Assembly: GCF_036785885.1 (NCBI RefSeq)
Contig: NC_092323.1
Location: 9,928,501 to 9,992,500 of the forward strand
Direction: 5' to 3'
Length of the DNA: 64,000 nucleotides
Source: Coffea arabica
Taxonomy: Eukaryota > Streptophyta > Magnoliopsida > Gentianales > Rubiaceae
Shown one piece after another: positions 12,812-64,000 of this stretch. The notes beneath the pieces are model-generated. The model saw only the letters and a list, made by a program, of their open reading frames with translations. It was not told the origin of the DNA and searched no databases. Position 1 is the first letter of the stretch; every line of letters begins with the position of its first letter. Both the position numbers and the translations under genes were made by a program.

Positions 12812-14686
12812 GTAAAAATCAGATTTAGAGAACCCTGCTAGGTTTTCTTTATGGTATCAAATTCTGAAGGGCAAGATCTGAACCTGATACTTGGCAGTAC
12901 GAGCATTAGATCTCGACGTGTTAATTTGCAATGGGGATAAATACTCTTATACTTCTTGCTTAGTTTTCTCTAGCAAACTGACAAATAGCTGAAATAGGCT
13001 CCCGTTTCCTTTTTGTTGCTAACAGATGTAAAACAAGATTTTTTGAGTTTGAGAAGTGGCAGTGTTATGATGATCTTGTGCTTCAGCTGTCGTGCTTTCA
13101 TTGTTGTCTCTCTGAACTTGGTGTGGTGATTAGGTTGAGTTTAGTCAATTAACTGCATATGCGTGATAGCATCGTATCAGCAGCTAAGCACTATACTTCG
13201 ACTTCAATCGAGTGCGCTATAATACTGGTTGTTAGCCAATGACAGTATCTACACTTGAGCAGATGATCGTACGCAACCTCAGAATTAGAACTTTTTCTCA
13301 ATATTGTTTAGCATTCCTATTGAAGACTAAACATCAACGGATGAGATTGTCTGAAGAAAAATTTAAACTAGTATTGTAGGGCTTTACCCCGGAGGGAGCC
13401 CTTCCAGAAATTCTCGATGGCCTAGGCCAAACCCAGGCCAAAGAGGGGGTTTGGAAATAGTTTTCAACCAGCAATAGACGCGCCTCGGTTAGAACCTCAC
13501 TAGCTGCGTCATTGCCCCAAGCGCAAAGATGCAAATGACGGAGTCCCCAGGCCGCCTTTTATACCACGCTGCTCTCTTGCGTCTCCTATACCAAGTCGAT
13601 GTGGGATGTAGACAATTCCTCTAGTGGTTGAGCTCCCAGCTATAAGCCTACAACTGCAAGGCAGTTCACAATTCAACTCCTAGGATGATTAGACTTCCAA
13701 TTAGCAAGAACTAAGTACTTTCCCTTTTTGGCACTCTATGTCAAGTAGATATGCGGAACGAAATTTACAGCTCCTAATTTGTTTGCAAAAAAGAAAAAGA
13801 ATAATTATTGCTCTAGATTTTAGAATCATCCACATCCATAAAACCAAAAACATACCACATATATATATATATTATCATTTGAAAAGTAAAAGTATCATAA
13901 TTTGTATGATAAAATAATGATTTGATTATTTTTAATTTACCTGAATTTTTTCATACAATGAAAACAAATGTGACAATTATAAATTTAACATCGCTATTAA
14001 ACATATAATCGTGAATTCAGAAGATCAAATAGGTTTTTAACCTTGATTTCACATTAAATATTTAGTTAAATTCTAAAAGAATGATTTACATAATTGTTGT
14101 TGATATTATATACTATGTAGATAAATAATGTCAAAAATAAAAAAAATTATTATAATCAGCCAATTACGGAGACCCCCGTAATGGTATATTTTTGGGATGG
14201 ATAAGGAAGCGAGGGAGTGGAACTGTGGAAGGAGAGATTTTAGACGGGGCGACGGGGACGGTTTCCCAGCTCCAACTAAAACCTGCCCCGTTGACAATAA
14301 CACCCGAAGGGAAATACTACAGGGACGAGTGAGAGTAGCCCACGGGTGAGGGAGCCGTTCCCATAATTCACTCACAAGTCACCCCACTGCACACCCAAAG
14401 AAACCGAAGATTCTTGAGAATATTCCCTCCCTCCCCCACCAGGATCCAAATCCTGACGTCCTGATCCTCCTCCGGCCGACCCCACTCCGACCCTCTTTCG
14501 CTTTCGCTTTGGGCCCTCTCGCCATCATCATCATCGTCCCGCCTCATCCTTGATCCTTTGATCCTATCCCGCCTGTCTCACTCCTACTACTCGCTAGTAG
14601 TACTATTTAAGTGCTCCATCGCCCCCTCTCCCCTTTCCCATCCAATTCCCACCACTCTGCAAAAACAAAAGGAGAAAAATAAAAAG
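12812..14686. other. Spacer between PIG-M and the CRAL-TRIO gene
   Basis: PIG-M 3' UTR, then a GC-richer repeat block (13340-13690), then a very AT-rich part (13740-14160). From 14400 comes a CT-rich promoter and leader for the CRAL-TRIO gene. No coding exon was found. Confidence 0.5.
13340..13690 (-). mobile_element. Unclassified repeat, LTR-like remnant
   Basis: A GC-rich island in AT-rich surroundings. Read on the minus strand it has the look of an LTR or TRIM promoter region: CCCACATCGACTTGG, then GGTATAAAAGGCGGCC about 30 bases on. No internal coding region or second terminal repeat is seen, so at most it is a solo or fragmentary old copy. The identification is weak. Confidence 0.3.
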
Positions 14687-26300: not shown

Positions 26301-27013
26301 GATTCGATTTGATAATATAAAAAAGTGCTAAAATTGAATTTTTTCAGATATTCAGAAGTTTTGAGTGTTTGATAAATAAAAATTCATCTGCTGAACTTGT
26401 TAAGCGGTGCTGAATTTGTATGTATTTTTTTCAGCACAAGAATCGTAACTCAATGCTTAATTTTAATAAGAATCAACAGATTTACTTCAAATACCTTATT
26501 TTATCTATCAAATTTACCCTTATTTGTTAATTACGATCAAAATTCTTATCTAATTAAATGACTTGATATTTTCTATTTAAAATCCTTATATAATTAAATA
26601 ACCTAATATTCTCTATTCAAAATCATTATCAAATTAAAATCCTTATCCAATTCTGGAATTTCTATTAAAAATATTAGATGTTATATGAATTGTTGGATTG
26701 TAATGTTTTCCATAATGTATTTCATCTTTTATATTAATTTGATTTAAAAATAAATGTTATTGGCTTCATATCTACCATTTTAAACTAATTAAATCATAGA
26801 TTCTATTTCTTTTTTGGATGAAAAAAAGAAGGAAAAAATTATACAATTTAGCTTATTAAGCATTCAGTTATAAATATTTATCAAACATCATAGATATCTT
26901 CAGCATTGAAATTTAGACATTCATATATTTCTTTTCTGTATTTAAAATTTAACAAATTAATTATTTCAATGTTCAGATTTCAAAATTTAGATTCAATCTT
27001 ATCAAACGGAATA
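26301..27013. mobile_element. AT-rich MITE, about 0.71 kb, with long imperfect terminal inverted repeats
   Basis: It opens GATTCGATTTGATAATATAA and closes with a segment whose complement is ATTCCGTTTGATAAGATTGA. Both ends continue with GTTTGATAAAT-like and CTGAA-rich words. There is no coding capacity. A second copy of its left part starts at about 63795 in the same orientation. Ends are approximate and no target duplication was resolved. Confidence 0.6.
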
Positions 27014-47750: not shown

Positions 47751-48677
47751 TTAAGATGTTCCTGCTGAGAGTATGTTCAGAAGAGATACTCTTGTGCGGA
47801 TCAAATGTCTAAACAAAAGCTCTAATCCATTTTCAAGGCTCTCAAGTATAGTTTCCAAGGCTTCCAACTTTCTTTGAGCTGATTCAATCCTCTCGGTTCC
47901 ATCATCTTTGCAGGAATCATCAATGAGTAAATTGCCAAGGGCAATATCTACATCTTCCAGCTCATTCAAATTATTCCTTTCACCTTCACATGCCAATCCT
48001 CCTTTGTAAATAAAATTTGAAACCAATGTCCATCGAGTAGGTTTTAATTTCATCACTGGAACTGACAGAAATAACAGCAGAGATGAGAAAGTTGAGATGT
48101 TCAAGAGACTCGCTTCAGTCAGGGCTCTGAGCACAATTGACAGCTGATCGTCTTCAGAATTTGACAGATGCAGAGGGACCATTTTGTTATCTACATGCTT
48201 CAGCTTTGCAAGAGACCTTGAGATCTCCTTCTGTAAGCTTTTTCTGGAGCACATAAAAGATGCTACATCAGTTTCAGTTCTCAATTCTCGCAGCTTGCTT
48301 CGTCGAAGAGATGATTGGAGCCCTTTAATGCCTTCTTTCATTTGCATGACTGTATCTCTTGCGTTGCTACAAACATCTATGTATCTCACAGATTCCTCAA
48401 CTAACTCATTGACCATGTGATCTTGCTGATGCTGTGAAAGGGCTTGTTGAGACAGTGGCAACGCAAGAAGTTCCTCTATGCCTTCATGCAATTCTTTAAG
48501 GCCTGACAAAGACAGGCAAATCTTATCCGCCTTGGAGAAGGAAGAAGAGGATGTCTCCCAAGTCTTTAGCTTGTTCACCGCTTGCTCAATCCTGATTGTG
48601 CTCGGATGTGATCTTGTAGGCAAGCTGACAGAACGAACTCTGTAATGGTTCTTGGATTTTGGATTGAACGCAGCCAT
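47751..48677 (-). CDS. DUF241 / BPS1-family protein (copy A)
   Basis: A single-exon gene of 308 residues, starting MAAFNPKSKNHYRVRSVSLP. An in-frame ATG 60 bases upstream (48737) exists, but the family begins at the MA(A/S)-K-S site. Family features: SLPTRSHPSTIRIEQAVNKL near the N-terminus, then helical repeats including GLKELHEGIEELLALPLSQ, SVRYIDVCSNARDTVMQMKE, GLQSSLRR, FLSVPVMKLKPTRWTLVSNF and ENGLELLFRHLIRTRVSLLN at the C-terminus. Members are plant-specific, intronless and clustered. Some (BPS1) limit a mobile growth-inhibiting signal from roots, but most have no known function. This is the most divergent of the three copies in the window. Confidence 0.9.
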   Translation of the reverse strand: MAAFNPKSKNHYRVRSVSLPTRSHPSTIRIEQAVNKLKTWETSSSSFSKADKICLSLSGLKELHEGIEELLALPLSQQALSQHQQDHMVNELVEESVRYIDVCSNARDTVMQMKEGIKGLQSSLRRSKLRELRTETDVASFMCSRKSLQKEISRSLAKLKHVDNKMVPLHLSNSEDDQLSIVLRALTEASLLNISTFSSLLLFLSVPVMKLKPTRWTLVSNFIYKGGLACEGERNNLNELEDVDIALGNLLIDDSCKDDGTERIESAQRKLEALETILESLENGLELLFRHLIRTRVSLLNILSAGTS

Positions 48678-51600
48678 TTTTTCTTTTCTGATAGTATAGA
48701 TTGGTTCAATACTCCAATTAACTCCCTGATTCATCATCTGCTCTATTTATACTATTATAACACTCGAAAGAAAACAGGAGGTTGGGCAGGTTAGTATTCA
48801 TTATTATGTCTTTAATTATATCAATGTGATAAGCATCTTCAACATTATGTTGGTTTTTTGTTGTCCTGCCCTCAACCAACAAAAGCATTAACAACCAAAA
48901 TATTATATTGATCCTAAGCTAGGTATTCGGACAGGGTACATTCATTTTAGGCAAAATTTTCATGCACCAATGCCACCGGCAAAAGGGCTCATGAATCCAG
49001 AAGAGTCGGTTAGGCATGTAAAAGAGAATGGTGCCTTCCAAAGTTGTCTAGATTGGGCGAACCTCCATTATAGACATAATTGTAGTGCCCTACAAGGATG
49101 GCTTTTTAGATATTGAGATCTAAGAGGGATCATAAATTATCATAATGATTGAATTGCCGACGAATATGGATTGTGAAGGCAAATACAATGTCATAAATTT
49201 TGTGCACGAGTGGCAAGTTATTGCACTGTTTGCGCTGAGGTTTCAACCTGCTAATGGTGATGGAAATGACAGCTGGTATGTTTTGTTCTTGATGCCTGGT
49301 TGCCTAATGCAAAATTGACCAAGGGTTGCAACTAAAGAATTTTGTCTAAATAAATAAATTAAAGAAATTCTCAAGGGTTGAGATTTTGCTCTACAAAATG
49401 GGATAAGTTGAGAAAACAACCATTCGGGTCAATAGCACATACTGCAAAATACCATTGGAACTTTGATGATCAACTGATGCATGTGTAGTTAACTCCAGGG
49501 GAAATATTTTCAGGAAAAGAAAGTGGACAGAAAACAAAGATTACTTCTAGGCTGAATTCTCAGAGTCTCAACAATGCTAAAGACTTGAATGGCGAATTTT
49601 ACCCAAATTCTGTGGATGATTTAATTAGATTAAATTGCATATATTACTTGAGATGGTTATCTAATGTAATTGTCTTCTTTTGTTTTTAATTTTTCCCATA
49701 CTTAGCTTACTCTATACTAGAATTTGTCCCGGATTGTTACTTTCCTTTGAGTGTACGATTGAATAATAATACATAACATCACCTTTTACGAACGTGGTGC
49801 ATCCCATCTATCAGTTATTTTAAACATTTCAACTTTAAACGATTAGGCAATAATACGTTCTCAAAACCTGTCGAGAAGGATAGAGAATAATTTTTACCAC
49901 AGGTGAAAACAAAAGAACAGTTGAAGAACTTGTCAGCACATTTCTCATGCCTATGTTCAGACGTTGGACAGGGCTTAATGGGTTTGGAGAAGATTGAAGA
50001 GATTATTTAGGCATTCACATAATGCTGCAGTCCTGTTAACTTGCTGCAGGATTCCTTGGCTGTTGGTACAGATGTACACCCTATATTGTCTGAAGTTTGT
50101 TGAGGTCTTAATCATCCATTCTAGTCATTATCTTAATGAAACCAGAGTTCAGGGTTCGACAAGGCCTTGCTATTTTCACATTGAGAAAAGTGTAACAAGA
50201 GAAATTGATTTGTGTCTTGTTCCTTTAACAATGTGTAGAGAGCATCAGAGCATGTGATGCTACCCTGGCTCTCCTCTTATGTTTGATATTTGGCCAACAA
50301 TGACTAATAATTTGCCATTTCTTCTGCTCTCGTGTTCATGAAATTCTTCAGGTAGCAAGTGCAGTCTTGCCCATATATGGAAATTCTTTTCAAGTTTTAG
50401 GAAGATGGGGCGGTGGGTGGTCTTCTGGCGCAATAATTGCCACCTTGGCCTAACGTTAGCAACTGGGATGTTGCATATGTTATCTCTTCATACTTAGATG
50501 AATGGTGGGGTAGTATTAGATGGAGACATACAAGAGACATCTGTCCTTTTACAACATCTTGAGCTTGCTATCCAAACATCTGTCCTATGTTGACCATTCA
50601 ATCCAATTGTGCTGTTCATTATAGTGATTAAGAAACCACATTATCTGAGTGCGACGATACGATGGATATGGTGGTTAGACATTCATAATACATAGAGATA
50701 ATCTTCCTACAAATTTCAGAGTTCACACGCGAATGGCTTCTTGTGCTGATCCAAACATATAATGAGGGTGTAGATTACTGACATTGAAGCAGATTCGAGC
50801 TGTGCACGAGTGGCTTCTTGTCACAATGTTTTCAGGGTTGGTGGCAATGGACAACCTGGAATACGTTTGCAGCACCATTTCTGTGATTCTAAGTCAATAC
50901 AGATAATAATTTGCTTAGTTTACTGCCAGAACCATTGGCTTACGGTTTAATTAAATCAATAAGTAGAATAATTATAGACCAGTAGTTTCGTTTCGTAATA
51001 CCTATGAGGAGTGATCATATTCTCATTCTGATCTCTTCATCGTTCTTGCGTCTATTAATGAGATTTACCATCCTCGATTGTAAGAAAGTTTGATAACCGT
51101 AAATTCAACATAAAGAAATTGATTGTTCTAAAGTGAGGCAAAAGTAATAGAGACATCAGAGTTTAATCCAAGTTTTCACAGCTTCGGCAGGCAAACGAAT
51201 AAACAATGACTGAGCAAGTTTTCAAGCTCAAATCTACCAACCACACGTGCGATCTCCTCAGCGTTCTTGACACCTTCAACATGTGGAGGGAGACAACCAA
51301 GTACAATTTCACAATTCAAAAAAATAGAGGCTTCGCTTGCAATTAATTGCAGGTTGGATTTTCTATATCTGAAGATAATTAAGCCACAAGAATTGTCAAA
51401 AGTTTGATCCTGATCTTCGATCTACCCATACATAAAAACACGAGGTACACCTTGATAGAACAGAACAATGAAAATTTGCAGATACAGGTAGGAGGAGTTG
51501 TAGTTCTTCCTGAACAGACTAAAGCTTTATTTGAAAATTCATTAAGACAATAAAGATAAGTTTTTTCTTTGTTTTTGTAGAGTGGAAATTAACCTGCTTT

Positions 51601-52243: not shown

Positions 52244-53740
52244 TTAGCATGAGATGATGTTTAGCAGAGAGGTCCTTGATCTGATTAGGCACCTAAACAA
52301 GCCCTCCAATCCATTCTCAAGACCCTCAATGCTAGCCTCCAAGGTCTCCAATCTGTTTTGCACCGACTGGATCTTTTCATTTTCACTTTGATCATTTCTG
52401 CAAAGGCTGTGTAGGGCTGAATCTACACTTTCGAACTCATTCTCAACTTCTTGTTGATCTTCAAATCCCACCTTTTTCTTGTTTACTAGTCTTGAAACCA
52501 GTGACCATTTGCTTGGCTTTGACTTGGGTGATTGAGAAGTCAAGAAAAGCAAGACATTTTGGAAAATGGCGATGCTGGTTGTGTTAACTTCTCTTAGTAC
52601 TCTAATCACTGAAGAAATATGTTGATCATCAAGATCCATGATTGCTGAAGCACTGATCTCATGATCTATTTGTTTCAATGCTGCAATTGATCTTTTGGCA
52701 TCTTTCTTCATCTTCTTTCTGAAGTAAGTGTATTTGGTAACGCTTGTTTCCGTGCTTGAATCTCCTTTTCTTCTCCTTAAAGAAGACTGGAGATCTTTAA
52801 CATTTTCCTTGAATTGTGAAACAATCTCCCTGGTAATGCCACAGATATCCAAGATTCTGACTGAATTATCCAACAACTGCTCACCCCATTTTTGCTTTTG
52901 ATGTTGAGACAGTGATTGAATGTTCAGAGGCAAGTTGAGAACATCATCCATGCATTTATACAACTCAGCCAATCTGCATAAATCTTTGCAGATTGCCTCT
53001 GAAGTTGATGATGCTTCCCATGATGCGAACCTGTTCAACTCCTCTTCAACAGCAAGAGTTGTAGGATGTGATCTGCAAGGCAAACTAATTGATCTAATGT
53101 GATAAGTAGATTTTGAGGCCATATTTTTTTTCTCTTGATGACTTAGATTAGCAAATACAAGTTTGCTTATGATGAATTGATGAAGAGGAAGAGTTGAAGA
53201 CCACCATATATAGATGAAGAGACAAAGAAGAAGACAGGATGAGCAATTTTTTCAATATAAAATTCTGGGCAACATGTGCTGGCATTGTTGGCAGTCCTTC
53301 GAGCTAAGCAAATTTGCAAGACAATCGGCAAACAAAGTTCTAATCATTTGCCATTTCTTTAATACCTCATGGCTATGGGGTGGATATGAGGTGTTACATT
53401 TTCCTGTTCTTGATCAAGAGGCTTTGCGCTGCTTCTGCCACATAGCTTCTCTATAGCTAAACTGAGGTGGCTAGTCACCTCTAAGTACGTGGCTTGTTGA
53501 GATTGTCTCGTTTCGAGGAGCCTTAATTCATCAGAAACAAGGACAAAGCACATCTTTGAAGATCATAATACAGTGATTACGACACATTAACAAAAGGGAT
53601 TTGGATAGTTTAAAAATAGAGGCGTTGGAACTCGGAATGGCAGATTGAAATTAATGAACGCAAATGGGGCCATTAATTAAATATGTGCACGTATGGCTTG
53701 TTGATCCTGTGTCTCCGCTGAATTAATTATTGTTTAATGC
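50630..53740. repeat. Duplicated block 1 (DUF241 copy B with both flanks)
   Basis: Its partner is at 54545-57315. Similar segments include the 3' flank (AATGGCTTCTTGT, GCACGAGTGGCTTCTT), the whole coding region, and the 5' flank (CAACATGTGCTGGCA, AATCATTTGCCATTTCTTT, ACGTATGGCTTGTTG). The limits are approximate. Confidence 0.75.
52244..53122 (-). CDS. DUF241 / BPS1-family protein (copy B)
   Basis: A single exon of 292 residues, from ATG 53122 (MASKSTYHIRSISLPCRSHP) to the stop at 52244. It has the same architecture as copy A: N-terminal basic SLPCRSHPTT, helical middle (LAELYKCMDDVLNLPLNIQS, NVKDLQSSLRRRKGD), hydrophobic FQNVLLFLTSQSPKSKPSKW, and a C-terminal coiled region EGLENGLEGLFRCLIRSRTS. 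The frame is intact with no sign of decay. It is the likely functional member of the B/C pair. A 5' flank of about 600 bp is shared with copy C. Confidence 0.9.
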   Translation of the reverse strand: MASKSTYHIRSISLPCRSHPTTLAVEEELNRFASWEASSTSEAICKDLCRLAELYKCMDDVLNLPLNIQSLSQHQKQKWGEQLLDNSVRILDICGITREIVSQFKENVKDLQSSLRRRKGDSSTETSVTKYTYFRKKMKKDAKRSIAALKQIDHEISASAIMDLDDQHISSVIRVLREVNTTSIAIFQNVLLFLTSQSPKSKPSKWSLVSRLVNKKKVGFEDQQEVENEFESVDSALHSLCRNDQSENEKIQSVQNRLETLEASIEGLENGLEGLFRCLIRSRTSLLNIISC

Positions 53741-55759: not shown

Positions 55760-57315
55760 CAAGAATGTTTGAGGAGGGAGGTTCTTGATGTAATCAAGCA
55801 CCTAAACAAGCCCTCGAATCCATTCTCCAAAACTTCAGTGCGAGCCTCCAAAGTCTCCAATCTATTTTGCACCAACTGAATTTCTTTTCATTTTCGCTCT
55901 TTGTCATCTCTCCAAAGGCTACGTAGAGCCGAATCTACACTTGCCAATGCATTTTTAACTTCTTGTTGATCATTTTCACATCCCACTTTTCCCTTGTTTA
56001 CTAGTTTAGAAACTAATTAGGTTCATAAAGTATTGTACCCATGAAGCACCTTACACCAAATGCAGTAGGATAATTGCAACAATGTACTATATATTTGTGA
56101 TGTATAGTGGAATAGGGAATTGTTATTATAACAAATTCAGCGTAACAAAAGTCACAATGCCTAATACTACTATACAAGTTTATAAGGTAAAATAAGTAGT
56201 AGTTTTATTTATCGTTTTTAGAAGAGGTTTCGTTTCAATATCAATACGTGCAAAGTATGTGCACTTTCCCAGTTTTAACATGATCTTTGGGCATCTTTCT
56301 TCGTCTTCCTTCTAAGAGATGTGTAGTTGGCAATGCTTGTTTCCGTGCTTGAATCTCCCTTTCTTCTCCTTAGAGAAGACTGAAAATCTCTTACATTTTC
56401 CTTAAGCTGAAAGATGATCTCCCTTGAAATGCCACAGATGTCTACAAGTCTCGATGATCCATCCAAGAACTCTTCACCCCATTTCTGATTTTGATGTTGT
56501 GAGAAGGCTTGGATGGTCAGAGGCAAGTTGAGAAGATCATCCATGCGCTTGTACAACTCTGCCAATCTGCAAAGGCCTGTGCAGATTGCCTCTGAAGTTG
56601 ATGATGTTTCCCATCTTTTGATCTTGTTTAACTCCTCTTCAATTCGAAGAGTTGTAGGATGTGATCTGCAAGGCAAGCTAATTGATCTAATATGGCAGAG
56701 AGCAGTGGATTTTGAGGCCATATATTTTCACTTTGTTGCTCTTCTCTTGATGATTCAGATTAGAACACTCAAGTTTACCTGTGATGAATTGATGATGAAC
56801 AAGAAGTTGACGCTAGTGTGTACAGATGAAGAGATAGGAGACCAGATGAGAGATGTTCTGAATATTAAACTTTGATCAACATGTGCTGGCAATGTGGCCA
56901 TTCCTCTGAGCAAGGCAACATTGTAAGACATTTGGCCAACAAAGTTGTAATCATTTGCCATTTCTTTGACATCTTGCAGGTGTGCAAGTGGAGCTGAGGT
57001 GTTATAATATCATGTACTTCCTGACACATTGCTTCTGTAGATCCAACTACTTGGCTTGTTGAGATTGTCTAGTTCGGAGGAGCCTTGATCCATCAAAAAC
57101 AAGGACACAGCACATCTTTTTAAAGACTAATTCTGGAGATTCCAACATGTAAATTAAGTGATTAGAACCATTAAAGTAGGCATTAAAGTAGACTTTTTTA
57201 TATCGAGGTGTTGGATGAATGGTCGATAGAAACAAATGAATGCAGGCAATGCCATTGAATGTGTGTGTGGTGTACGTATGGCTTGTTGGCCGGGTGTCTC
57301 CGGTGAATTAATCAG
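54545..57315. repeat. Duplicated block 2 (DUF241 copy C with both flanks)
   Basis: A direct-orientation partner of 50630-53740. It is shorter mainly because of differences in the 3' flank and the altered middle of copy C. Confidence 0.75.
55760..56721 (-). pseudogene. Broken DUF241 gene (copy C)
   Basis: The N-terminal half is intact: 148 codons from ATG 56721 (MASKSTALCHIRSISLPCRS) to a stop at 56275, very like copy B. After KKDAQRS the sequence matching copy B residues of about IAALKQ to PSKWS (roughly 62 codons) is gone. About 260 bp of unrelated AT-rich DNA (56015-56280) stands in its place. The C-terminal end resumes at about 56014 with KLVNKGKVGCENDQQEV, passes a frame break and in-frame TGA within the KERK segment, and fades after RCLITSRTSLL. 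A 148-residue truncated protein could still be made, but loss of the second half suggests a pseudogene. Confidence 0.85.
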
Positions 57316-57629: not shown

Positions 57630-58128
57630 TCGATGGCTCATGTAAAATTGCGAGCACCTATTCTCAGAAGGACCAAATTGAATGCCGATTCTTGAGTCTT
57701 GGACAAAATTTCTTGTCGCATTTTCATGTCAGTTTATCAATCATATCTTTCCCTTGCATAGGTAGCCTAATTGAACTACATGCATGCTTGGCAGCAAATG
57801 TACAAACTTATTAGTATAAAAGTTAGGAAGGATAAGCATCTATAATATTGTCGACTAGAATGGGAGACATCAGGAATCTATATACTCCCTCCTCCTCATT
57901 TTGATAATCTTAATTTTTTTTCACACAGTTTAAGAAAAAATAGCTAATTTTATTTAAAAAAATAAATCTAATCTAATGTTTTCCTAAAATACTCTTAAAT
58001 TAATATTAGAAGTATCACTAATCACCATACCTTTACACTAATTATAACAACAATAATGACGGTATATTGCACCATTCGAAACATATATCAAAACCATTAT
58101 TGGTAGAAATTTTGACTATATTAAATAG

Positions 58129-58272
58129 AGTAAATCTTATATACGTTGACAGCGTATACACTATCACCGTTTGATTCATGACATGTGTGTAAAAAAATTG
58201 AATTTCAAATTCAAATTTTGCATAGTTGTCATTCATCCGACGCTGACAGTGTATAAATAAGGTAGAGTATAT
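58129..58272. mobile_element. About 145-bp insertion in unit 1, MITE-like
   Basis: The segment is absent at the matching place in unit 2 (about 62195). Its ends are partly inverted copies: GTAAATCTTATATACGTTGA at the left, and GTAAATATACTCTACCTTAT read as the complement from the right. Both carry a CACTGTCAGCGT or GACAGCGTATACAC-like word. Either a small MITE inserted in unit 1, or unit 2 lost it. Confidence 0.5.
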
Positions 58273-58530
58273 TTACTTATACCAAAGTATATTAAATAAG
58301 TGCATTCTAGAAAAATTAAAAATTAACTATATTCTTGAATTGTAAGGTGAACTATAATTTAAGATGAATGAAGAAGATAAAACAGACTATTAAAGTAGGA
58401 CAGAGAAAGTAGCATTATGTATAACAGTCTTCAGCAAGGAGGAATAAGAACACTCTGCTTCTCTTTGGAAATATAAAGAGAGAGATTAGTATTTGGTCGT
58501 TAAGAAAGTAACAGGTTTTAATTACTACTA

Positions 58531-60716
58531 CTAGGGAGGGACAGTCCGCGCGACGCGCGAGAATTTGGTGCTTGTGATTCAAGATAATTAATAATTATTG
58601 TTTAATATTTTGTAGTATAGAAACTGAAGTATGATGATTTTATCATGTGATTTTAATAGAAAAATCATAAGTTACATAGTGAGTCAATAAAAATAATGTG
58701 CAATGAAACATCCTTATCGTTATACTATATAAGAATCCGTTGTGATCAAAGGTTATGTTTGAATTTTAACTGCAAAGATAAGGGTAGTTTGAAAATGTAA
58801 GAATGTTTGAAGTGCAATTGAAAAGTATCCAAAGGTCTCTTCTAAAACTTATCCAAGATGATAAAACATTTTAAAGTATCAATTGGACCATTCATCTCTC
58901 GAATCTATATATGTTCGTGAAAGATCCCTCAAGCAATGCTTCTGATTTCTCCCTCGACTTAAGCTCAACCTGAATTATCAAGTCAAGTTTATCCATCAAT
59001 CACTTTGCGTCCAATCTAATCTAAAATAATTTTATTTTTGACTAACTATTTATATAATTTGGTGGGTATAATATGACTTAATCACATGTTTCTTACAGAG
59101 ATAATAATGCCCAAAAATGATAGATAGATAAGAAATTTAAGTGGTCTTTTTCAAAGTTTTGTAGAAATTATTCAGATTTGGTGTTTTTTGCTAGAGACAT
59201 TTCTTTGTAATCTCATAAATAAGTTCAAATCTGCATAATTGTTAAAGATCTGAATTGAAACCATCTTGATTATAAAAAATTGGTGCAAATAATATTTTCT
59301 AAATTTGAAATTGTAGAAAATGGTAACTAAAATCAGAAGAAATTCCTCATATGAATTCGAATTGCAAACTATAGGTAGAAACTGCTTAATGATATTTTTC
59401 AATATTTACTTATATAAGTATCCAATATAACATCTCTACTTAATTGACTCGTTTGAACTATGAATAATAGTTGTTTCAATCAAATCAAGAAACATTATTT
59501 ATCATTGTACAATATACAATTATGAGTAAATGAATTAATATAATGCAATCAAAATGGTGCTGTAGCTAAAGCATTTAAACTCATCAAGTTTCGCCACAAA
59601 TTCTTTTAGATAGCATAAAAAATCAATTTTTTTGTATTTGAAACTATATAAACAGTATAATACAAGAACGAGATCACATGGAAAGCAAATAGAGTGCAAA
59701 TGACATCTTAGTACTATGTAGCATGATTAATTTTCTTTTTTAGTTTCAATGAAGTACAAAATTCTAAGTTAATAAATTTTACAATCATAAAATTCCCAAT
59801 TAAAATAAACACAAGCTGAATTCCAAATCATATTACATGAAAAAATAACTACTTGAACCATAACTGCTGGAATGTAGTCAACAGATCCCTGGAGTCAAGA
59901 ATAATAGGAGAAAGTTCATGAGAAATAAGGTTATTTGACTTAAATAAAGAGATAATACCTTGGCTGAGGAGGAGAAGATGATAAAATTGCTTTTCTGATT
60001 ATTTTAGAAAGTGACAATGTTATCTCAAATTGTACTTTAACCAGAGATAGAATCTCTGGAATCTACTAAGAAAAACAATATAATTAGTCAGTTTTTGGAA
60101 TTAGAAGTATCAAAAGGCAAACTATATGAAGTTCTTGAATAAACCAATCATCAGAAAAAAAACTACAATCGAAGAAGACAAACCCAAAGAACTTGCCTCA
60201 ATTTAAAGGAAAAGCTATGCATTTCACCAAATATTTAATAGCCATAATAAAATCAAAGAGGTGAAACCGAAAAAGAAGAAAGGGTATCGGCTAAACATGG
60301 GAACATAAATATGATAATGATTGTTCAGATAATAATTAAGTTAATTAATTGTAATTAAAATCCAATTATGTAAACATCCAATTAATTCCTTAACCGATGA
60401 GAAAGGTTTCAGGAAATTGGAAGGCTTGGATGTTAGTATAATAAATGATTAAAAGGACTTTTATGTAATTCTATCAAAATACAAGCTTTATTCAGTTGTA
60501 TTTGATACTCAACTTGGCATCAAACATTGTAACATACCAAACCTGCCCCTAACCTTAAATGTCTGAAAGGTTATATGAATAATTATAGTGAAATTAAAGC
60601 TATAATGACTTGTACTCAGTGTTCCAATTACTCTTCAAACACTCTCACATTCCCAAAATAGCCTCGCCTCTGCGGTTGAAATCTAGTCCTAAACTCGTTC
60701 TTATATAGTATAAGGA
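58531..60716 (-). mobile_element. Non-autonomous Helitron, 2186 bp
   Basis: Read on the minus strand it starts TCCTTATACTATATAAGAAC and ends CGGACTGTCCCTCCCTAG. A palindromic CGCGCG-A-CGCGCG hairpin (58547-58559) lies about 12 bases before the terminal CTAG. The host bases are A on the 5' side and T on the 3' side, as the family requires (5'-TC, CTRR-3', no target duplication). The empty site survives in unit 2: TACTACTA|TATGG at 62466/62467. No RepHel coding was seen; its longest frames are short and featureless. Confidence 0.92.
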
Positions 60717-61148
60717 TATGGTATCCATCATGACTTGGAATTGAAGTTCATCAAATTTTAACCCATCGGCCTGAAGACATAGGGGCAACTTCATTAAATA
60801 TTATCAGGTGATTTGTCGTTTAATATTTTCCACTTAAAAATCTGATTACATGAATAAGTATATTAAAAAACTTGCATCTCGCATGAATTAAACTATTAAG
60901 TATGGTGAAGAATAACTAAGGGCTAAAAAAAAAACTAAGGTGGTTATTATTTAGTATTTCCTCTAATACTGAATATAACTCGAAGTAAATGAATGAAAAT
61001 GACCTTGGAAAAATCAATAGTGAAAATGTTAAATTTGTGGAGCTAAAGCAACGGGGCCTCATAAGGGTCCGGCTCTATTGGCATCCATTGCTGTTGGGCG
61101 GACCCAAGCTTTGAAAAGGATAAGATAAATAAAGACTTTCATCACCCA

Positions 61149-61232
61149 GTCAGGATGGCCGAGTGGTCTAAGGCGCCAGACTCAAGTTCTGGTCCTCGTG
61201 AGAGGGCGTGGGTGCAAATCCCACTTCTGACA
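61149..61232 (+). tRNA. tRNA-Leu (CAA), copy 1, with altered T-loop/B box
   Basis: 84 nt with cloverleaf features: acceptor GTCAGGA...TTCTGAC, D-arm with GGCCGAGTGGTCTAAGG, anticodon stem CCAGA/TCTGG with loop CTCAAGT (anticodon CAA), a long class II variable arm, then the T-arm. It differs from copy 2 at one base: G at 61214 where T (position 55, the pseudouridine of TΨC) is expected, giving GGTGCAAATCC in place of GGTTCAAATCC. This damages both the T-loop and the Pol III B box, so the copy may be silent. TTTT follows within 20 bp. No intron. Confidence 0.85.
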
Positions 61233-61320
61233 TGGCTTACTCCTTTTCAGCGTCTGTCTTTTTTTTGCAATTGTACAAGGCCCTTTAACAGGATCGATGG
61301 CTCATGTAAAATTGTGAGCA

Positions 61321-61716
61321 CCTCTCGAGACGGGATCTAGCAGCTTGACAGAAAAAAGATAAAATTGGCAATTTGTTGCACCTAACCAACAACACAATGA
61401 AAAGTATGATAAGGTAAACAAATCCTATTTGCACTTGCATGAATAAAGTTACTTGAAGAGGTAGGAAATATATGTAGTTATTAATAAGTGAGACTTCCAA
61501 ATTTTGTAGCTGATTAAATTCTCCATTAATTCATCATAACAAAGTGATGATGACCACCTTAGCTTAGCACAGCCTACTCATTCATGCCCTGCCCTTCCAG
61601 ATCAAATGGATCCTGCAAGGCATCTTTCGTTTTTCATCGACTACCGTCAATCTGGTACTTGTCCCTTGTACTGCATGATCATTCATCTCCTAGTGAAATG
61701 TAGCTATAGCATTCAT
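61321..61716. other. 395-bp segment present only in unit 2
   Basis: Unit 1 reads GAGCACCTATTCTCAGAAGG without interruption. Unit 2 has GAGCACCT, then this segment, then ATTCTCAGAAGG. No terminal repeats or coding were recognised. It is either an insertion in unit 2 or a deletion from unit 1. Confidence 0.6.
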
Positions 61717-62921
61717 CTATTCTCAGAAGGACCAAATTGAATGCTGATTCTGGAGTCTTGGACATAGTTTCTTGTCTCATTTTTTCAAGTCAGTTTATCA
61801 ATCATATCTTTGTCTTGCATGGGTAGCCTAATTGAACTACGTGCATGCTTGGCAGCAAATGTACAAACTTATTAGTATAAAAGAATAAGAAGGATAAGCA
61901 TCTACAATATTGTCGACTAGAATGGGAGACATCACAAATCTGTATACTTCCTCCATCCCATTTTGATAATTTTGATTTGTTCTCATACAGTTTAAAAAAA
62001 AATTAGTAAATTTTGTTGGAAACGTAAATCTAGTCTAATATTTTCCTAGAATACCCTTAAATTAATATTAGAAGTATCACTAATCACTAATCACTATACC
62101 TTTGCATTAATTATAACAACAACAATGACGTTATATTGCACCATTCAAAACGTATATCAAAACAATTATTAATAAGAAATTTGACTGTATTAAATAATAT
62201 ATGGTTTATTTACTGATAACAAATTATATTAAATAAGCATATTTTAGAAAAATTGAAAGTTAACTATATTCTTGAATTATAAGGTAAACTATAATTTAAG
62301 ATGGATGAACAAGTAAAAAAAGACTCTATTAAAGTAGGACGGAAGGAGTAGCATTATGTATAGTAGTCTTCAGCAGGGAGGAATAAGGAACACTGCTTCT
62401 CTTTGGAAATATAGAGAGAGAGATTAGTATTTGATCGACAAGAAAGCAAGGTTTTAATTACTACTATATGGTATCCATCATGACTTGGAATTGAAGTTCA
62501 TCAAATTTTAACCCATCGGCTTGAAGACATAGAGGCAAATTCATTAAATATTATCACGTGATTTGTCTTTTAATATTTTCCAATTAAAAATCTGGCTACA
62601 TGAATAAGTATATTAAAAAACTTGCATCTCGCATGAATTAAACTATTAAGTATGGTGAAGAATAACTAAGGGCCAAAAAAAAAAACTAAGGGGGTTATTA
62701 TTTAGTATTTCCTCCAATACTGAATATAATGATTTTCGCACTTGAAGTAAATGAATGAAAATGCGCTTCGAAAAATCAATAGTGCAAATGTTAAATTTGT
62801 GGAGCTAAAGCAATGGGGCCTCACAAGGGTCCGGCTCCATTGGCATCCATTGCTGTTGGGCCGACCCAAGTAGCCAAAGAATTTAGATAAATAAAGGACT
62901 CCAGTGTCCATCCGTCACCCA

Positions 62922-63005
62922 GTCAGGATGGCCGAGTGGTCTAAGGCGCCAGACTCAAGTTCTGGTCCTCGTGAGAGGGCGTGGGTTCAAATCCCACTTC
63001 TGACA
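62922..63005 (+). tRNA. tRNA-Leu (CAA), copy 2, canonical
   Basis: 84 nt, identical to copy 1 except for the standard TΨC (GGGTTCAAATCCC). Intact A-box region (TGGCCGAGTGGTC) and B box, anticodon loop CTCAAGT, class II variable arm, acceptor GTCAGGA/TTCTGAC with A as discriminator. A TTTT terminator lies about 14 bp downstream. Upstream ATAAATAAAGG is a TATA-like element of the kind common before plant tRNA genes. Likely functional. Confidence 0.95.
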
Positions 63006-63060
63006 TGACTACCCCCTTTTCAGTATCTGTCTATTTTTTCCAATCGTACAAGGCCCTTTA

Positions 63061-63510
63061 TTTTTTATTATTATGTAAAATCGGAATCCTAAGTAGGATC
63101 GATTTTAGTTTCACAGAATCGGATCGTAGGATCGTAAGATCCAAAAGCTCCTAATTGCAATTAAAGGCTGCAATTCTTTGATAAATTACAAATATACCAC
63201 AAATATTTTTATTTACTTGCAAAATGGAGTTTCGTATTTCATAAATTTACAAAAAATTGTAGGATCGTTAAAGGCTGCAATTCTTTGATAAATTACAAAT
63301 ATACTACAAATATTTTCATTTACTTGCAAAATGGAGTTTCGTATTTCATAAATTTACAAAAAATTGTAGGATCGTACGATCCTACCGATCCTGCTACGAT
63401 CCTACGCGATCTTACATAGATTAATATGATTTGCGACTCTGAATACGATCCGGATCGATTTTGGTTATCCGGATCGTAGGATTGTACGCGATTTTGACAA
63501 CTATGCTTCA
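63061..63510. repeat. GATC-rich repeat element with internal 107-bp tandem duplication
   Basis: Begins after the end of unit 2. Both flanks are dense in GGATCGTAGGATCG and its complement CGATCCTACGATCC. The core is a 107-bp unit (63161-63267) repeated at once (63268-63374), each copy beginning TTAAAGGCTGCAATTCTTTG and ending TTGTAGGATCG, with only a few differences. The inverted GATC-rich flanks suggest a non-autonomous DNA element, ending near TTTTGACAACTATG (63493-63506). No coding found. Confidence 0.65.
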
Positions 63511-63794: not shown

Positions 63795-64000
63795 TAGTTT
63801 AAGGGTCTGTTTGATAACATAAAAAAGTGTTGAATCTGAACTTTTTCAGACATTCAGATGTTTTGAGTGTTTGATAAATGAAAATCCATTTGCTGAACTT
63901 GTTAACTAGTGCTGAACTTGTGTGTATTTTTTTCAGTACAAGAATCCTAACTGAATGCTTAATTCTGATAAGAATCAATAGAATTACTTCAACTATCTTA
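63795..64000. mobile_element. MITE, left part, cut by window end
   Basis: Begins GGGTCTGTTTGATAACATAA and follows the same order as 26301-26500: TCAGATGTTTTGAGTGTTTG, TGCTGAACTTGTTAA, ATTTTTTTCAG, AATGCTTAATT. The element presumably continues beyond 64000. Confidence 0.65.

Follow-up and report, generated by a model that had tools for sequence, protein, structure and literature searches.

Organization of the locus

The window, i.e., the whole 64 kb stretch of plant DNA that was analysed (G000:C14:9928501-9992500), contains a tandem duplication with one tRNA-Leu(CAA) gene in each unit (61149-61232 and 62922-63005), and unit 1 also holds a Helitron-like insertion (Table 1). Elsewhere in the window there are three neighbouring frames of the BPS1 family (47751-48737, 52244-53122 and 56275-56721), the third of which is short, covers profile positions 1-101 of 238 and is possibly a pseudogene or an exon. 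Other features are a match to U4 snRNA on the minus strand (13380-13530, 113 bits), a 107 bp unit present as two head-to-tail copies with 98 % matches (63161-63375), and a 191 bp repeat with 87 % identity between its copies (63810-64000 and 26308-26498).

Table 1. Coordinates of the insertion, its parts and the tandem units in the window.
Feature	Position	Strand	Remarks
Non-autonomous Helitron, 2,186 bp	58531..60716	minus	5' end at 60716, 3' end at 58531; from sequence, empty-site alignment and 39 other copies
5' terminal region, element positions 1-95, TCCTTATACTATATAAGAACGAG...	60622..60716	minus	part repeated within the element; copies that retain it match
3' hairpin, CGCGCG-T-CGCGCG	58547..58559	minus	12 bases from CTAG
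3' terminal CTAG, host T next	58531..58534	minus	from sequence and other copies
Second, diverged Helitron 5' terminus, opposite orientation, starting TCGTTATACTATATAAGAATCCG after A	58717..58823	plus	element positions 1894-2000
Tandem unit 1, with the insertion and a tRNA-Leu gene	57655..61287		limits approximate
Tandem unit 2, empty, with a tRNA-Leu gene	61714..63060		limits approximate
Empty A-T target in unit 2	62466..62467		from alignment of the units

Once the element is removed, unit 1 aligns with unit 2 over 1,326 ungapped columns with 89.2 % identity (K2P distance of 0.117), and the junction is free of gaps. The sequence of unit 2 over the empty site is TTTTAATTACTACTA followed directly by TATGGTATCC, i.e., the uninterrupted A-T target at 62466/62467 that the first-pass annotation had described. 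A deletion scar at this site, which that annotation had named as evidence to the contrary, does not appear: the alignment of the units has a clean A-T junction, with neither extra TA repeats nor a scar. The insertion in the window, the only copy for which the empty site is known, thus lies between A and T without target duplication. The empty site had also been taken to fix the ends of the element to the base. The ends do lie at TC and CTAG, but the alignment of the units by itself allows two placements one base apart, because base 58530 is identical to base 60716, and it is the other copies, with their differing flanks, that set the ends at TC and CTAG. The units also differ by a second insertion, of fold-back, MITE-like structure (58155-58255, 74 % palindromic), which occurs in unit 1 only.

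Termini of the element

Canonical plant Helitrons have a TC 5' end and a CTRR 3' end, insert between A and T, and carry a GC-rich hairpin at a distance of 10-15 nt from their 3' terminus, as described in PMC6591975 and PMC3288121. The window element, with a GC content of 28.7 %, lies on the minus strand, where it reads TCCTTATACTATATAAG...CGCGCGTCGCGCGGACTGTCCCTCCCTAG between a host A and a host T. The TC start, the CTAG end and the CGCGCG hairpin about 12 bases inside that were noticed in the first pass are all present, on that strand; since the plus strand reads A, CTAGGGAGG...ATAAGGA and then TATGG across the element, a TC...CTAG reading is valid on the minus strand only. Both the TC terminus and the CTRR terminus, here CTAG, are found in the window copy and in other copies, and the 6 bp stem of the hairpin lies 12 nt from CTAG, within the range of the canonical elements.

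The hairpin is not informative by itself. GC-rich hairpins before CTRR-T occur twice in the window (58531, minus strand; 43125, plus strand), against 0.85 on average in 20 first-order Markov simulations, five of which also reached two. In comparison with shuffled sequences, its stability gave z values of -1.18 and -1.43, and each time 23 of 200 shuffles equalled or exceeded it. As stand-alone evidence, a hairpin before CTRR was hence rejected, since over 64 kb it is no more frequent than expected by chance. Six of the 23 CpG dinucleotides of the element are within its last 40 bases. A number of other copies have a longer stem, CCCGCGCG-T-CGCGCGGG, and the window copy is altered at the base of this stem. 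Within the last 45 nt, the longest perfect stem measured 8 bp in eight of the 40 copies, 7 bp in four, 6 bp in eight (including the window copy), 5 bp in four and 4 bp in four, and 12 copies had none of at least 4 bp; the perfect 3' stem has therefore often been lost in the family.

The element belongs to a dispersed and homogeneous family

A search of the host assembly (1.198 Gb in 131 contigs) with the element produced 48 matches: the window copy itself, 39 main matches at other places and 8 partial pieces. The copy number is a lower bound, because 40 of 931 first-look candidates were scored. All 39 other copies, taken with 500 bp flanks for comparison, had a main match with 92.5-98.5 % identity to the window copy. 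This match started at position 1 in 28 copies, including L047, where it is the inner part of a composite, and the preceding base was A in 22 and T in 6. It reached position 2186 in 37 copies, with a T next in every one of them (37/37). These neighbouring bases are those expected of canonical Helitrons, which enter A-T or T-T sites and leave no target duplication, as the empty site shows for the window copy. On the 5' side, the remaining copies have lost or altered from a few to several hundred bases (L048, L051, L060, L062, L075, L076 and L078) or represent the inner part of a composite (L054, L068, L071 and L074); on the 3' side, L066 and L077 differ in the last few bases. In 8 of the 39 copies, the 3' end is directly followed by ten bases of TA repeat, and the flanks average 70.6 % A+T.

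Copies L044 and L045 have identical flanks and zero distance in the tree, and are thus a duplicated region and not two insertions; they are the only pair with the same flanks among the 39 other copies, and both were counted in the tallies of 5' and 3' bases. They lie on opposite strands of G000:C4, ca. 380 kb apart, in a recent inverted duplication near the contig end.

The genomic copies sharing its termini that the first-pass annotation had proposed to look for therefore exist, at least 39 of them, as in a canonical Helitron family. It had also anticipated common ends with different interiors; the ends are indeed common, whereas the copies found share the interior too. These results support that the element is a member of a dispersed, homogeneous non-autonomous Helitron family with shared ends. 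The decisive evidence for a Helitron is the exact empty site together with this family with identical ends, the hairpin motif alone being weak.

A looser pattern of the 5' end matched 31 stretches in genome contigs (L001-L031), all from prokaryotes, which were set aside as chance matches, and the exact patterns of both ends had no match in viral contigs. No open-licence full text was found to contain both the letters of the 5' core and the word Helitron, and no title listed among open-licence papers on Helitron, Coffea and non-autonomous elements describes this family.

The tandem duplication preceded the insertion

The window copy and its nearest relative, L040, differ by 31 aligned substitutions, of which 15 are derived in the window copy (11 of them C>T or G>A), 15 in L040 and one in both. 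Only 4 bases are private to the window copy among the 40 copies, and its terminal branch in the FastTree phylogeny is 0.0096. Change on its own lineage therefore amounts to ca. 0.7-1 %, compared with a K2P distance of 0.117 between the units, or ca. 0.059 per lineage if rates are equal. Since the former is far below the latter, this settles that the tandem duplication occurred first and that the element entered unit 1 only, long afterwards.

The empty site had been considered sufficient to order these events. The duplication did come first, but a clean empty site alone leaves the order open, because precise somatic excision of Helitrons is reported for maize (PMC10095026), and it is the divergence that decides. 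The element might be older than the duplication and have been precisely excised from unit 2 later, and Helitron excision with footprints is also reported in maize and suspected in rice (PMC4683698). Such a history is nevertheless very improbable, because the units separated several times longer ago than the window copy arose, and the junction in unit 2 has neither extra TA repeats nor a scar.

An inverted 5' terminus inside the element

Positions 1894-2000 of the element are an inverted and diverged copy of positions 1-95, with 68 % identity over 107 aligned columns and a local score of 50, whereas 300 simulated sequences reached at most 31. This inner terminus begins 186 bp from the 3' end, in the window copy with TC preceded by A, as in a true 5' end. 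All 40 copies retain 100 or more of its 107 bases, and it is older than the dispersal of the copies compared. We considered and rejected a nested Helitron on the plus strand, with its start at 58717: a scan requiring a perfect GC-rich stem of at least 5 bp found no plus-strand hairpin-CTRR-T end inside the element or rightward in the window. Because of this, and because the segment occurs in all 40 copies, we read it as an inherited part of the family and not as a later nested insertion. That the inner terminus, kept in all 40 copies, is a working second Rep nick site on the opposite strand seems very unlikely; if true, transposition could begin on either strand, or the element could fold back. 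Descent from one founder would explain equally well that every copy has this terminus.

Helentrons, or Helitron2 elements, have terminal (asymmetric) inverted repeats and a T-T target. The inverted copy of the 5' end close to the 3' end, as well as the T that precedes 6 of the 28 copies, would suit an element of this type, or one with terminal inverted repeats, better than a canonical Helitron. We regard this assignment as extremely unlikely, given that the inverted copy begins 186 bp inside the element and is not terminal, that the element has TC at one end and CTAG, with a GC-rich hairpin, at the other, and that there is no target duplication. Additionally, no terminal inverted repeats were found at the element termini, in agreement with canonical Helitrons and not with Helentrons, and A precedes 22 of the 28 copies.

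Composite copies

Five of the 39 other copies (L047, L054, L068, L071 and L074) are clear composites, with a second outer 5' end before a full or nearly full copy. In L047 and L054, positions 1-346 precede the full or nearly full copy and the join comes after GGATGTTTA; one of the 40 copies has a T next, which creates an A-T site there. The tree of main copies does not group these two as sisters and so gives no support to a single origin for this type. In L068, L071 and L074, positions 1-516 are followed by positions 11-2186 with an identical join. Since they belong to one clade (support 0.99), share the join and have different flanks, this composite type appears to have spread. L048, with a separate 41-base piece of the 5' end situated 26 bases from the main match, is perhaps a sixth composite. 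The inner inverted 5' end and the composites show that Helitron ends recombine.

Coding capacity and search for an autonomous partner

The longest reading frame inside the element is of 77 aa, and 38 frames of at least 30 aa touch it. A Pfam scan of six of these 38 frames gave no match up to an E value of 1. On these six frames, the element would have no recognised coding capacity and would hence fall in the non-autonomous class; the Rep and helicase of an autonomous Helitron were not found, either by frame length or by Pfam in the six frames. A captured gene fragment was also considered, and rejected on the same six frames, within the range of Pfam families.

The host genome contains at least 150 matches to Helitron_like_N (150 of 150 scored were over the cut-off, from 763 first-look candidates), and many of those listed are in frames above 1,100 aa. 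Three of these Rep matches, L082, L083 and L084 (G000:C8; 523936, 540862 and 557788), have equal scores and an exact spacing of 16,926 bp, and perhaps a whole autonomous Helitron, or its region, is repeated in tandem there. In 20 Rep loci of 3.5 kb each, there was no match to the ends or the interior of the family at an E value of 0.1; on the 5' side of Rep, the comparison covered 3 kb for one lineage and ca. 1.5 kb for the 20 loci. In the 8 kb downstream of Rep, six of six lineages have, in the Rep sense, a hairpin-CTAG-T sequence that may be their 3' end; it was selected by eye among the hits listed, which in some stretches include other hairpins. The best of these six ends, from L101, agrees with L042 in 25 of 31 columns and with the window copy in 23 of 31; L101 shows no homology further inward, and its 3 kb upstream lack a matching 5' end. 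An autonomous element with both family ends was therefore not found among the few Rep loci examined, which on the 3' side represent six lineages.

Interpretation

The window element is almost certainly a recent insertion, into unit 1 and after the tandem duplication, of a member of a dispersed and homogeneous family of non-autonomous Helitrons, presumably with RepHel supplied from elsewhere. This reading draws on the direct observation of the ends, the A-T site, the lack of target duplication, the empty paralogous site and the dispersed copies, as well as on the Helitron Rep genes of the genome and the order of events given by divergence. The tandem duplication, with its two tRNA-Leu genes, came first. 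RepHel from an autonomous Helitron elsewhere in the genome would later recognise the TC 5' end and peel off one strand up to the 3' hairpin and CTAG, and this strand would be joined between the A and T of the new site in unit 1 only, without target duplication. We infer this rolling-circle, or peel-and-paste, mechanism and the mobilization by the RepHel of another element from established Helitron biology.

Counted against a recent Helitron insertion are that no autonomous partner with both ends appeared in the six Rep lineages examined on the 3' side, that the 5' end of the element recurs, inverted, in its interior although Helitrons lack terminal inverted repeats, and that the hairpin is at chance level, with 12 of 40 copies lacking a perfect stem of at least 4 bp in the last 45 bases. 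Although an insertion in one duplicate and a deletion in the other look alike, there is a practically negligible chance that no transposon is involved, i.e., that 2.2 kb were deleted from unit 2 or unrelated DNA was inserted in unit 1, because a 2.2 kb unit with identical ends occurs at other places with different flanks.

Comparison with known Helitrons

As far as tested, this is a well-resolved, young non-autonomous Helitron of a known kind, a clean but ordinary example. It is fully bounded, with exact ends and an exact empty site, and dated relative to a host duplication. Its family is young and homogeneous, and long Helitron Rep frames abound in the genome. It can be of use for annotation and as a source of presence/absence markers.

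Like the canonical plant Helitrons, in the features given in PMC6591975 and PMC3288121, the element has TC, CTRR, the hairpin and insertion between A and T; unlike them, it is without recognised coding sequence and has an internal inverted 5' terminus. Helitrons with multiple termini have already been described in maize, where they derive from nested Helitrons (PMC3288121). The extra outer 5' end of 5 of the 39 copies resembles these, except that both parts of the composites belong to one family. The element is also like Mothra in being a non-autonomous element of ca. 2 kb with TC and CTAG ends, a hairpin (13 bp from the end in Mothra), many copies and insertions between A and T that are visible as presence/absence, a likeness set by description and not by sequence. 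Whereas the subtypes of Mothra vary by blocs of tandem repeats, the 40 copies of the window family keep one interior, truncations and composites aside.
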